Shown here one piece after another: positions 11,489-61,313 of a stretch of DNA of 64,000 nt; position 1 is the first letter of the stretch, and each line of letters begins with the position of its first letter. The position numbers were made by a program, and so were the translations under genes. The stretch is taken from NCBI GenBank assembly GCA_015067615.1, contig SVMD01000009.1, positions 1-64,000 of the forward strand, read 5' to 3'. Under the pieces are notes generated by a model, which saw nothing but the letters and a program-made list of their open reading frames with translations, had not been told where the DNA came from and did no database searches. The stretch comes from Oscillospiraceae bacterium (lineage in GTDB: Bacteria > Bacillota > Clostridia > Oscillospirales > Oscillospiraceae).

Positions 11489-11670
11489 AAAATTATCGTT
11501 TACAAGAGCTTCCCCCTGGGGGGAAGCTGGCACCGCGTAAGCGGTGACTGATGAGGGGACCACCCTGCGATGACCGGAAATGCAACAGTTTTCCCGCTGC
11601 TGTCCCCTCATCCGGCCCTTCGGGCCACCTTCCCCCCAGGGGGAAGGTATTAAGCTAAACGATCATTTAT
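11489..11670. repeat. TIR-bounded intergenic element, class A
   Basis: AAAATTATCGTTTA...GCTTCCCCCTGGGGGGAAGC...CCTTCCCCCCAGGGGGAAGG...CTAAACGATCATTTA. Confidence 0.75.
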
Positions 11671-17090: not shown

Positions 17091-17945
17091 TCAAGCCTGT
17101 TTTTTCATAATTTCCGGTATTTTTTCATAAATCACATCCGCCACGGCGCCGTCGGCGCATTTGCACACGGTTTCGAACCGATCCTTCAGCGCCGCGTCAC
17201 TGGGCACGAAGGCATAGTCCGCTCCCTCCAGCATGGGGATGTCGTTATGGGCATCACCTACACAGACTAAGATTTTTCTTCCCAGTTGTTGCTGCAGATC
17301 CCGGGCGGAGCGGTTCTTGGAAACACCCTTGGCGTGGACATCGATGATCCGGGTGGCAGCCCGGAACACCTCGCAATGCTGCCCGAAGGTGTCCTTCAGC
17401 TGCTGCTCAGCCTGGTCGATCCGGGCGATCTCCTCGGGACTGCCGGTGAACATATCGGCAAGGACAGGGCTGCGGAATTCGCCGTAGAGGGTAAATTTCA
17501 GAAATGCGCCCAGATCATCCCCGGGCTTCGCGAAGCCGTGGGCGCAATTCTGCCGGACAGAAAAGGCATCCCAGGCGGGATTTGACCTGAAGCGGTAGTG
17601 GGCATCCACCGCCTGGACCTCCACGGTCAGGTCCGGGAACATCTCCATGCACTTATGGACCGTCTCCCACATGTCCAGCTGAATTTCATGGCAGAAATCC
17701 AGGGTGTTTGTGGATAAATCGTAAGCGGCGGAGCCGTTATACAGCAAAAGAGGGGCATTCACGGGCACGATATCCCGGAACACCTTGGTCATGGGCACAC
17801 TGCGGCCGGTGTTCACGGTAAAGGCGCCGCCATTATCGATAAAATACCGGATGGCTTCCAGATTCCGCACAGGGATAGAAGAATCCGGCGCCGTCAGCGT
17901 CCGGTCATAGTCCACGGTCAGCAGGATGTCAGAAAAATCGGGCAT
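17091..17945 (-). CDS. HAD-superfamily (Cof-like) hydrolase
   Basis: DILLTVDYDRTLTAPDSSIPVRNLEAIRYFIDNGG; KILVCVGDAHNDIPMLEGADYAFVPSDA. Confidence 0.85.
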   Translation of the reverse strand: MPDFSDILLTVDYDRTLTAPDSSIPVRNLEAIRYFIDNGGAFTVNTGRSVPMTKVFRDIVPVNAPLLLYNGSAAYDLSTNTLDFCHEIQLDMWETVHKCMEMFPDLTVEVQAVDAHYRFRSNPAWDAFSVRQNCAHGFAKPGDDLGAFLKFTLYGEFRSPVLADMFTGSPEEIARIDQAEQQLKDTFGQHCEVFRAATRIIDVHAKGVSKNRSARDLQQQLGRKILVCVGDAHNDIPMLEGADYAFVPSDAALKDRFETVCKCADGAVADVIYEKIPEIMKKQA

Positions 17946-17968
17946 GGTGAAACCTCCTGTTCGGATGA

Positions 17969-18191
17969 TAAATTATCGTTTAGCGGCGTAAGCCGCTCAC
18001 GCTTCCCCCGGGGGGAAGCTGTCGAGCGTCAGCGAGACTGAAGAGGAATGCGGGCAGAAATCTAACGGTTTCGCATCCTTACCAGGCTTTTTCTGCACTT
18101 CAGATTTCGCCGTTCCTCTTCCGACCCGCCTTACGGCGGCCCACCTTCCCCCCGGGGGAAGGGTTGCGCTTCGCGCATAAACGATAATTTA
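17969..18191. repeat. TIR-bounded intergenic element, class A (full)
   Basis: TAAATTATCGTTTAGCGGCGTAAGCCGC...GCTTCCCCCGGGGGGAAGCTGTCGAGCGTCAGC...CCTTCCCCCCGGGGGAAGGGTTGCGCTTCGCGCATAAACGATAATTTA. Confidence 0.9.
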
Positions 18192-18196
18192 CCCTA

Positions 18197-19102
18197 TCAG
18201 CTCATTTTCTCAAGCTTTTCAATTACCTTCTGGAAATACTCAGGCAATGGTGCAAAGACCATCACGGGCCTTCCGTCCCGGGGGTGGAAGAAGCAGAGGG
18301 TTCCCGCGTGGAGGCACTGGGAATCCTGGCCCAGCTCCGCCTTTTTGTGGCCGTAGACCGTGTCGCCCAGGATTGGGTGGCCGATGTGGGCCATGTGGAC
18401 CCGGATCTGGTGGGTCCGGCCGGTTTCCAGCTTACAGCGGACGTGGGTGTAGCCCCGGTAGCGCTTGACTACTTCCCAGTGGGTCACCGCTTCCTTGGAA
18501 TTGCGGGCGATGACGCACATCTTCTTCCGGTCTGTGGGGTGGCGGCCGATGGGGGCGTCCACGGTGCCGCTGTCCTCTTTTAAATTGCCGCAGACGATCA
18601 GCTCGTAGACCCGGTGCATGGTGTGGTCCTTCAGCTGGGAGGAGAGCATATTGTGGGCAAAGTCGTTTTTGGCCACGGCCAGCAGACCGGAGGTATCCTT
18701 GTCGATGCGGTGGACAATGCCTGGCCGCAGCTCGCCGTTGATACCGGAGAGGTTGTCCCCCATGGCATGCAGTAGGCCGTTTACAAGGGTGTCATCCTGG
18801 TGTCCTGCCGCAGGATGGACCACCAGCCCCTTGGGCTTATTGATGACGATCACGTCCTCGTCCTCATAGGCGATATCCAGCTGCATCTCGGTGGGCCGGA
18901 TGTCCACCTTTTTGGGCTCCGGGATGGTAAATTCGATGGTATCTCCCGGGTTCAGCTTGTCGTTTTTCCTGGCCTTTTTGCCGTTGCGCGTCACCAGGCC
19001 CTCTTCGATGAGCTTCTGGACAGCGGAGCGGCTCATATTTTCGGCGCTGCGGACCAGAAACGCGTCCAGCCGCTCGCCGGGAATGTCGGCATAAAGTGTC
19101 AT
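18197..19102 (-). CDS. RluA-family pseudouridine synthase
   Basis: S4 domain; GLVVHPAAGHQDDTLVNGLL; PGIVHRIDKDTSGLLAVAKN; LETGRTHQIRVHMAHIGHPILGD. Confidence 0.9.
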   Translation of the reverse strand: MTLYADIPGERLDAFLVRSAENMSRSAVQKLIEEGLVTRNGKKARKNDKLNPGDTIEFTIPEPKKVDIRPTEMQLDIAYEDEDVIVINKPKGLVVHPAAGHQDDTLVNGLLHAMGDNLSGINGELRPGIVHRIDKDTSGLLAVAKNDFAHNMLSSQLKDHTMHRVYELIVCGNLKEDSGTVDAPIGRHPTDRKKMCVIARNSKEAVTHWEVVKRYRGYTHVRCKLETGRTHQIRVHMAHIGHPILGDTVYGHKKAELGQDSQCLHAGTLCFFHPRDGRPVMVFAPLPEYFQKVIEKLEKMS

Positions 19103-33952: not shown

Positions 33953-34138
33953 AATAAATAATCGTTTATCTCAGTAGGGCGGGGTCATGACCCCGCCGTG
34001 GCACCAATTCAATTGCGTAGCTGGCTGTATGCTAAAATCCTGGATTTTGCCCCGGATTTAGCGCTGCAGTTTCGTTACCTGGTCGGCGGGGTCATGACCC
34101 CGCCCTACGAAATGGTGCTACACTAAGTGATAATTTAC
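33953..34138. repeat. TIR-bounded intergenic element, class B
   Basis: AAATAATCGTTTA...GTAGGGCGGGGTCATGACCCCGCC...GGCGGGGTCATGACCCCGCCCTAC...GTGATAATTTA. Confidence 0.85.
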
Positions 34139-40504: not shown

Positions 40505-40629
40505 AGGGATAACCCCTCCTTTCTGGTTTTCATTATACAGTCCCGTGGTGGAAAGTCAACAATTTCTGGCAATATCTGACAGCTACAATTGGTCGATATT
40601 TACAAACACAAAATCCAGTTTCCCAGATA

Positions 40630-40850
40630 AATTATCGTTTATGCGCGAAGCGCAACCCTTCCCCCGGGGGGAAGGTGGCCCGGCGTAAGCCGGGTCGGAA
40701 GAGGAACGGCGAAATCTGAAGTGCGGAAAAAGCCTGGTAAAGATGCGAAATCGTTAGATTCCCGCCCGCATTCCTCTTCAGTCTCGCTGACGCTCGACAG
40801 CTTCCCCCCGAGGGAAGCGCAAGCAGTTTACGCCGCTAAACAATAATTTA
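40630..40850. repeat. TIR-bounded intergenic element, class A, inverted copy of 17969-18191
   Basis: Reverse complement matches the 17969 element closely over its whole length. Confidence 0.9.
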
Positions 40851-48280: not shown

Positions 48281-48559
48281 TAAATTATCGTTTAGCTAAG
48301 TCATTGGCACTGGCGTGGGAGCGCCACATAAACCTTCTCCCGGGGAGAAGGTGGCCCGGCGTTAGCCGGGTCGGAAGTGGAATGCGGGCAGAAATGTTAG
48401 GTTCGGTACGCAGAAACAGACATAATACAACGCAGGTTTTCAGCAGGCTTTTGCATATACCGCAAATCAGGTTATCTCCCGCATTCCACTCCCGCCCCCT
48501 TCGGGGGCACCCTCTCCCCGGGAGAGGGTGTGGCGGATGCGCCGCTAAACGATAATTTA
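48281..48559. repeat. TIR-bounded intergenic element, class A (long variant)
   Basis: TAAATTATCGTTTAGC...CCTTCTCCCGGGGAGAAGGTGGCCCGGCGTTAGCCGGGTCGG...CCCTCTCCCCGGGAGAGGG...GCTAAACGATAATTTA. Confidence 0.9.
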
Positions 48560-58717: not shown

Positions 58718-58919
58718 TAAATTATCGTTTAGCTTACGAATTCCATACGCCCTTGTAGGGCGGGCTCATGAGCCCGCCGACCAGCTTACGGGACTGCCCT
58801 GCTGAAGTCGGTGCTTAAACTGAGATTACTACATATATTTGACCGCTCAAGCAAATTGGTGCTTCGGCGGGGTCATGACCCCGCCCTACGAAATGGTGCT
58901 GCTATAAAAGATAATTTAT
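58718..58919. repeat. TIR-bounded intergenic element, class B (full)
   Basis: TAAATTATCGTTTAGC...GTAGGGCGGGCTCATGAGCCCGCC...GGCGGGGTCATGACCCCGCCCTAC...AAGATAATTTA. Confidence 0.9.
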
Positions 58920-61102: not shown

Positions 61103-61313
61103 TAAATTATCGTTTAGCGGCCAGTGGCCGCTGACAATTCGAGTCTGAGCCCTGGCAGTAATCGTTACGCCATTGGGCTCACCCGGTTCGATACAACTCA
61201 ATAATTGAGCTATTTTTGAACATGTAGCGTTACCGAGCGGGTCAGGGAAATAAAGATTACTGACGCACCAGGCACGCATTATCCGCGGGCATTGCCCGCT
61301 AAACGATAATTTA
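61103..61313. repeat. TIR-bounded intergenic element with unique structured interior
   Basis: TAAATTATCGTTTAGCGGCCAGTGGCCGC...GCGGGCATTGCCCGCTAAACGATAATTTA. Confidence 0.9.

Follow-up and report, generated by a model that had tools for sequence, protein, structure and literature searches.

Matched stem changes and a kept loop suggest a shape-read hairpin in a MITE-like repeat of the Oscillospirales

We describe a mobile repeat in which the stem of a short hairpin changes on both sides at once while its loop is kept. The element lies at positions 17,969-18,191 of the window (the whole stretch of 64,000 nucleotides analyzed here, taken from a contig of an Oscillospiraceae bacterium). It is a MITE-like mobile repeat, one of about 100 units in this genome that are bounded by terminal inverted repeats (TIRs). 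The matched stem swaps together with the kept loop suggest that cells or mobility enzymes read the folded shape (probably that of DNA) and not the sequence. Taken as a whole, a structure-recognized DNA hairpin in a REPIN-like mobile repeat is our best explanation, to which we give slightly more than an even chance.

The element consists of two inverted halves facing each other across a variable center (18,047-18,114), a part in which orthologous copies from elsewhere in the genus differ more than they do in the modules. From outside to inside each half contains hairpin 1, hairpin 2 (CTTCCCC..GGGGAAG), hairpin 3 (hp3) and a tag GAWGAGG. On the plus strand the left half opens with the TIR TAAATTATCGTTTA (17,969-17,982), which is backed by the TIR site counts and by the 98 extracted elements described below. 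Next come hairpin 1 (GCGGC GTAA GCCGC, 17,983-17,996), which is seen in sequence and fold and is partly broken in the second copy, and hairpin 2 (GCTTCCCCCGGGGGGAAGC, 18,001-18,019), which is nearly invariant across copies. The left hp3 (GTC GA GC GTCA GC GA GAC, 18,021-18,038) has tandem G.A in its stem and a GTCA loop, and the half ends on the inner side with the conserved tag GAAGAGG (18,040-18,046; GATGAGG in most copies). The right half, on the minus strand, was delimited from the sequence and runs from the inverted tag CCTCTTC (18,115-18,121) through hp3 (18,125-18,140, with a GTAA loop on the minus strand), hairpin 2 (CCTTCCCCCCGGGGGAAGG, 18,144-18,162) and hairpin 1 (TGCGC TTC GCGCA, 18,165-18,177, with a GAA loop on the minus strand) to the right TIR TAAACGATAATTTA (18,178-18,191).

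There is very little variation in hairpin 2 and the tag, whereas hp3 is swapped for very different hairpins between copies and species; copies L006-L008, for example, have unrelated hairpins in place of the left hp3. The tandem G.A mismatches of 18,021-18,038, in a CGAG context, are also seen in GTCGAGC..GCGAGAC-type hp3 stems elsewhere and are kept across species; this motif is known to form sheared pairs. The element lies 5 bp after a stop codon and 23 bp before a start codon; within 17,945-18,197 it exactly fills the space between the stop codon of the upstream gene and the ribosome site and start codon of the next one. In several relatives this space measures only about 20-40 bp.

The first-pass annotation had reported a swapped pair in the stem CCGCC-TTAC-GGCGG, and our comparison confirms it. 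The second copy lies inverted at 40,628-40,850 (minus strand), with arms 94% complementary to 17,969-18,191 (plus strand). At 18,126-18,139 the stem reads CCGCC TTAC GGCGG and the same strand of the second copy reads CCGGC TTAC GCCGG (40,680-40,693 on the plus strand): the pair C18129-G18136 is replaced by G-C and the loop is the same. In its own half-orientation the hp3 of the second copy is CCCGGC GTAA GCCGGG (40,679-40,694, plus strand), and the outer neighboring pair C18125/C18140, mismatched in the 17,969 copy, is paired here. In total the copies show 14 differences, four of which form two compensated pairs, namely 161/168 in element numbering (the pair noted before) and 88/126 (A-T to G-C). 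The accompanying statement that the other stems are kept in both copies holds for the remaining named stems, but the GGCGTAAGCC-type end stem has become GCGGCGTAAACTGC in the second copy, with one A.C mismatch and one G.T. Hairpin 2 of that copy carries one C-to-T change. The whole 223-bp element folds much better than shuffled sequences (z of -7.8 as RNA and -8.8 as DNA). When 14 random substitutions were simulated on the fold, at least one compensated pair arose in 17% of cases and at least two in 1.1%. Given this chance rate of 17% for a single pair, two copies say little by themselves and more copies are needed.

In the genome (a draft of 2.26 Mb in 31 contigs, 93% complete), class A is represented by seven good copies, next to others that are partial or diverged. 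The terminal repeat TAAATTATCGTTTA(GC) has 231 sites at up to two mismatches in 2.26 Mb, against 0-1 for the reversed-pattern control. A total of 98 TIR-bounded elements could be extracted, measuring 163-305 bp with TIRs of 14-16 bp, and behind the common TIRs several unrelated kinds of interior are found. Size, TIRs and copy number are those of a MITE (about 70-300 bp, non-coding, with TIRs and in many copies). Within the window, TIR extraction also yielded a related element that shares the half-modules and has a longer center (48,281-48,559) and one with hp3 TGGCACCGCGTAAGCGGTGAC and the tag GATGAGG (11,489-11,669). A further TIR element at 61,103-61,313 has the same ends and an interior without the hairpin 2 and hairpin 3 modules.

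Four copies show no more than three internal differences and have different bases directly outside TAAATT, so the flanks derive from the target. Over the 98 elements there is a target bias before the repeat (TTGNNNNGR/TA), symmetrical at both ends, and no direct repeat beyond a possible TA. A joined-flank search found no clean empty site; syntenic intergenic regions were too diverged for this purpose, and the corresponding sites of genomes G009 and G029 hold other repeats or a different interior. Related species retain the interior, but their end repeat has diverged or is missing. Two copies (L002 and L004, at G000 C25:109951 and C30:12725) differ solely by a mirrored change (T-to-G and A-to-C) that affects the same position in each TIR, as though one end had been copied onto the other.

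The first-pass annotation had also taken the paired change to mean that the folded form is maintained, with covariation expected over a full set of copies. This stands for the large copy set and not for the two copies by themselves. The eight class A copies of this genome show almost no signal (covariation term -0.53). The wider hp3 set comprises 211 half-modules from 16 genomes, giving 100 distinct strings, a count of strings rather than of independent lineages that overstates the sample size. In two sets of equal length the covariation is 0.352 (0.094±0.024 when shuffled) and 0.458 (0.109±0.026), a level reached by 0 of 500 shuffles in each case, and slid controls remain at or below 0.10. 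Because shuffles do not preserve relatedness, a nearest-neighbor comparison was added. Of the 11 pairs of hp3 neighbors within the genus with exactly two stem differences, 10 are compensated; order-wide this is 8 of 10 for near neighbors with two stem differences. The wider copy set supports selection. Part of the hairpin change is nonetheless wholesale hairpin replacement rather than stepwise paired substitution.

Conservation after insertion could be followed at two orthologous loci of G009 and G029 (85-88% identical). Here the modules have 3 substitutions in 220 positions (1.4%), against 16 in 175 (9%; p=5e-4) for the element center and 718 in 4994 (14%; p=4e-11) for the flanks. This low divergence in comparison to center and flanks indicates that the modules stay conserved once inserted. 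There are two further common sites where the interior is wholly different between the two species, which shows that replacement of whole interiors also occurs, and at two other sites G009 bears different repeats. Pairs L187/L270 and L188/L285 share an insertion site in two related species with entirely different interiors; this suggests either in-place replacement of the interior or one target that is used repeatedly.

The loops of hp3 are strongly oriented. Reading from hairpin 2 to the tag, a cGNAg or cGNNAg loop is present in 61 of the 100 distinct hp3 of the genus and the reverse form in one; such loops occur in 2 of 92 terminator-like hairpins and 17 of 602 other hairpins of the same genome. 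A single stem is found with the loops GAA, GCA, GTA, GACA, GATA, GCAA and GTAA (CTTAA being the only exception): the edges G and A are fixed, the middle and the length are free. One hairpin is also seen with its loop inverted, with GTAA and TTAC on the same stem. G.T pairs are rare in hp3 stems (6 of about 600 stem cells). GNRA, which accounts for 17 of the 27 GNNA loops in the genus, is a loop rule of RNA. Order-wide, the 95 hairpins among the matches listed include 32 cGNA, 7 cGNYA, 6 cGNAB and only 4 cGNRA loops. For DNA, d(GNA) triloops are stable, with a GNA motif that is described as transferable from RNA to DNA and back (PMC5815330). The stability of triloops depends mainly on their first and third base (PMC5090098), and for the stable DNA loops d(cGNNAg) and d(cGNABg) PMC5090098 cites Nakano 2002. 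Whether RNA or extruded DNA is the folded molecule had been left open at first; the kinds of loop and the scarcity of G.T pairs lean toward DNA, short of proof. Provided that the shape is selected, we consider the DNA reading likely. As the halves are inverted, the favorable strand is the top one for one half and the bottom one for the other. Such an arrangement is consistent with a DNA site that serves on either strand, as in REPINs, and equally with transcripts from both sides, and is not decisive.

It might be argued that the hairpins work within transcripts and influence mRNA decay, termination or translation, a role that has been suggested for MITEs and REPs. An mRNA arriving from either side would then meet a sense half first and fold hairpins with GNRA-like loops, and the inverted halves do present such a sense half whichever side the transcript comes from. 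The elements are also intergenic, often between co-directional genes (the 17,969 element being an example), their RNA fold is very stable and GNRA loops are common in the genus set. Nevertheless, we regard this as unlikely: among the matches listed order-wide, GNA, GNYA and GNAB loops stand against GNRA as 45 to 4, G.U pairs are very few, loops of a different kind cap the terminator-like hairpins of this genome, and there is no match to an Rfam family.

Stem compensation could also stem from DNA template switching without any selection for shape. Template switching or arm-to-arm conversion in palindromes would keep stems perfect, and several observations agree with this: the mirrored TIR change of L004 against L002 has a chance of about 0.002, mirrored variants are somewhat enriched in TIR pairs, a loop is inverted on one stem (GTAA/TTAC) and G.T intermediates are rare. 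What it leaves unexplained are the conserved G and A at the loop edges around a free middle and the low divergence of the modules, tags included, and for these reasons we hold it to be quite improbable. A further possibility, compatible with the others, is that the C-G/G-C difference between the 17,969 and 40,628 copies arose by recombination with a family member that already had CCGGC-GTAA-GCCGG, instead of by paired substitution. The hairpin GCCCGGC..GCCGGGTC is indeed present in other copies and species, L006-L008 bear unrelated hp3 stems and the common sites of G009 and G029 show wholesale replacement of the interior. On the other hand, the local differences are confined to the two paired letters and the outer mismatch, with identical adjoining sequence, and compensated neighbors are numerous in separate genera, so that such a swap seems possible to us but not the likelier origin.

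Across the order, 76 of 295 genomes and 52 of 148 sampled genera contain the half-module (CTTCCCC/GGGGAAG hairpin, hp3, GAWGAGG). The pattern used was GGGGAAGSTGN{6,36}GAWGAGG, for which controls gave counts of 0-2 and a few single matches are plainly due to chance. Some genomes contain dozens of copies. Many copies are located at contig ends (L212, L215-L217, L220, L224, L229, L247 and L248); since assemblies break at repeats, copy counts are low estimates. Plasmid and phage collections gave no match, and in viral contigs the exact TIR was seen in 31 stretches, once in each and never as an exact pair. The named relatives of a neighboring gene are Oscillospiraceae and Clostridiales MAGs. Our literature searches returned no description of this repeat family in this order.

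Several candidates for a mobilizing enzyme were considered. DDE_3 (IS630-type, as expected for a MITE derived from IS630/Tc1-mariner with a TA target) and DDE_Tnp_1 are both absent from this genome (draft, 93% complete). Y1 genes are present in 9 of 10 genomes, none of them flanked by modules or by the TIR of the element, and no TIR pair encloses a longer gene in the roughly one fifth of the genome that was searched. Over 40 genomes of the order, any Y1 match is found in 13 of 20 module-rich against 7 of 20 module-poor genomes (p=0.11). For strong IS200-type Y1 this is 10 of 20 against 2 of 20 (p=0.014 with kinship ignored), an excess that is a lead only; seven of the rich genomes have no Y1 match at all. 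A Y1 transposase gene between inverted GTAGGGCGGG hairpins, in the arrangement of REP/RAYT, was observed around 1402-1984 of L263 and around 1334-1891 of L269, and GTAG hairpins as at these genes form the interior of the TIR elements at 33,955-34,137 and 58,718-58,918 of the window. Species G096 has a transposase element with a perfect inverted repeat CAGCACGTCGTTTCAGTCTG (L254, 750-2293); its IS1182-like transposase, which came up in the DDE_Tnp_1 comparison, was rejected as mobilizer since the TIR does not match. On the RNA side, an Rfam scan of the window gave only three tRNAs at the gathering score, and the best sub-threshold hits under permissive settings look like chance. The idea of a hammerhead, raised by CTGATGAG, was dropped: the other linker type reads CGGATGAG and has no Rfam match.

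Returning to the DNA hairpin as our preferred explanation, the element would be a non-autonomous mobile repeat composed of two inverted copies of one oriented module around a variable center. A protein may recognize hp3 by its shape, that is, a short and nearly free stem, closed by C-G and capped by a loop of the G-N(-N)-A type. The fold would most likely be that of DNA, on the strand reading from hairpin 2 to the tag 5'-3', and would form during mobilization or replication. With such recognition, stem letters could drift as long as both sides change, and the loop signature and tag would be held. Against this we count that no mobilizer could be tied to the repeat, that no clean empty site was found and that GNRA also suits RNA. 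A broader version, in which the order carries mobile repeats with a shape-defined DNA mini-hairpin site (cGNAg / cGNNAg / cGNABg, sheared-G.A type) that some enzyme would read, is offered tentatively, at somewhat less than an even chance. Should the hairpins be recognized in the form of DNA, the repeats would amount to a natural library of many sequence-free, shape-defined sites, with covariation and loop rules readable straight from genomes. Two questions could then be put to the test: by which enzyme repeats of this type are moved in the order, and whether the DNA loop rules established in vitro (GNA, GNNA, GNAB) apply in living cells. There is also a warning: covariation alone is no evidence for RNA.

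The closest known systems are REPINs and BIMEs, which are likewise intergenic, of high copy number and made up of a spacer between two oriented hairpin units in inverted arrangement. In REPIN stems, compensatory changes are reported to be frequent (PMC3116915), and among GTAG/CGTC repeats there are subfamilies whose stems carry alternative complementary residues (PMC3733652); bacterial mobile palindromes with paired changes are therefore already known. REPINs and BIMEs are mobilized by RAYT / TnpA_REP, whereas no RAYT flanked by the unit of our element was found, and the GTAG/GTGG (or CGTC) tag at the hairpin foot is missing: its units start with CTTCCCC and end with GAWGAGG on the inner side. 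Of the REPIN/REP features, it thus has the inverted hairpin doublet around a spacer and lacks the foot and the cognate flanked RAYT. It differs further by two to three hairpins per half and, in this genus, an outer TIR of 14-16 bp. The MITEs RUP, NEMIS, ERIC, Nezha and EFAR resemble it in size (163-305 bp here), TIRs, the lack of evident coding capacity, many copies and foldability, but here unrelated interiors stand behind common TIRs, hp3 is hypervariable in sequence and fixed in shape, and no autonomous partner was found. IS200/IS605 have subterminal DNA hairpins that are read by shape at the element ends (PMC6006769), as we propose here; those of IS200/IS605 lie on the same strand at both ends and go with guide tetranucleotides, whereas here they are inverted on opposite strands and TIRs are present. 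TIRtrons and the TIR repeats of TIRYT transposases also form TIR repeat families, some of them self-complementary (PMC3733652), but no Y1 gene flanked by the present TIR was found. The present repeat is set apart by its module (a double hairpin with GAWGAGG and without GTAG), by a stem that is almost completely free in sequence, by its loop rule and by the order of its hosts.
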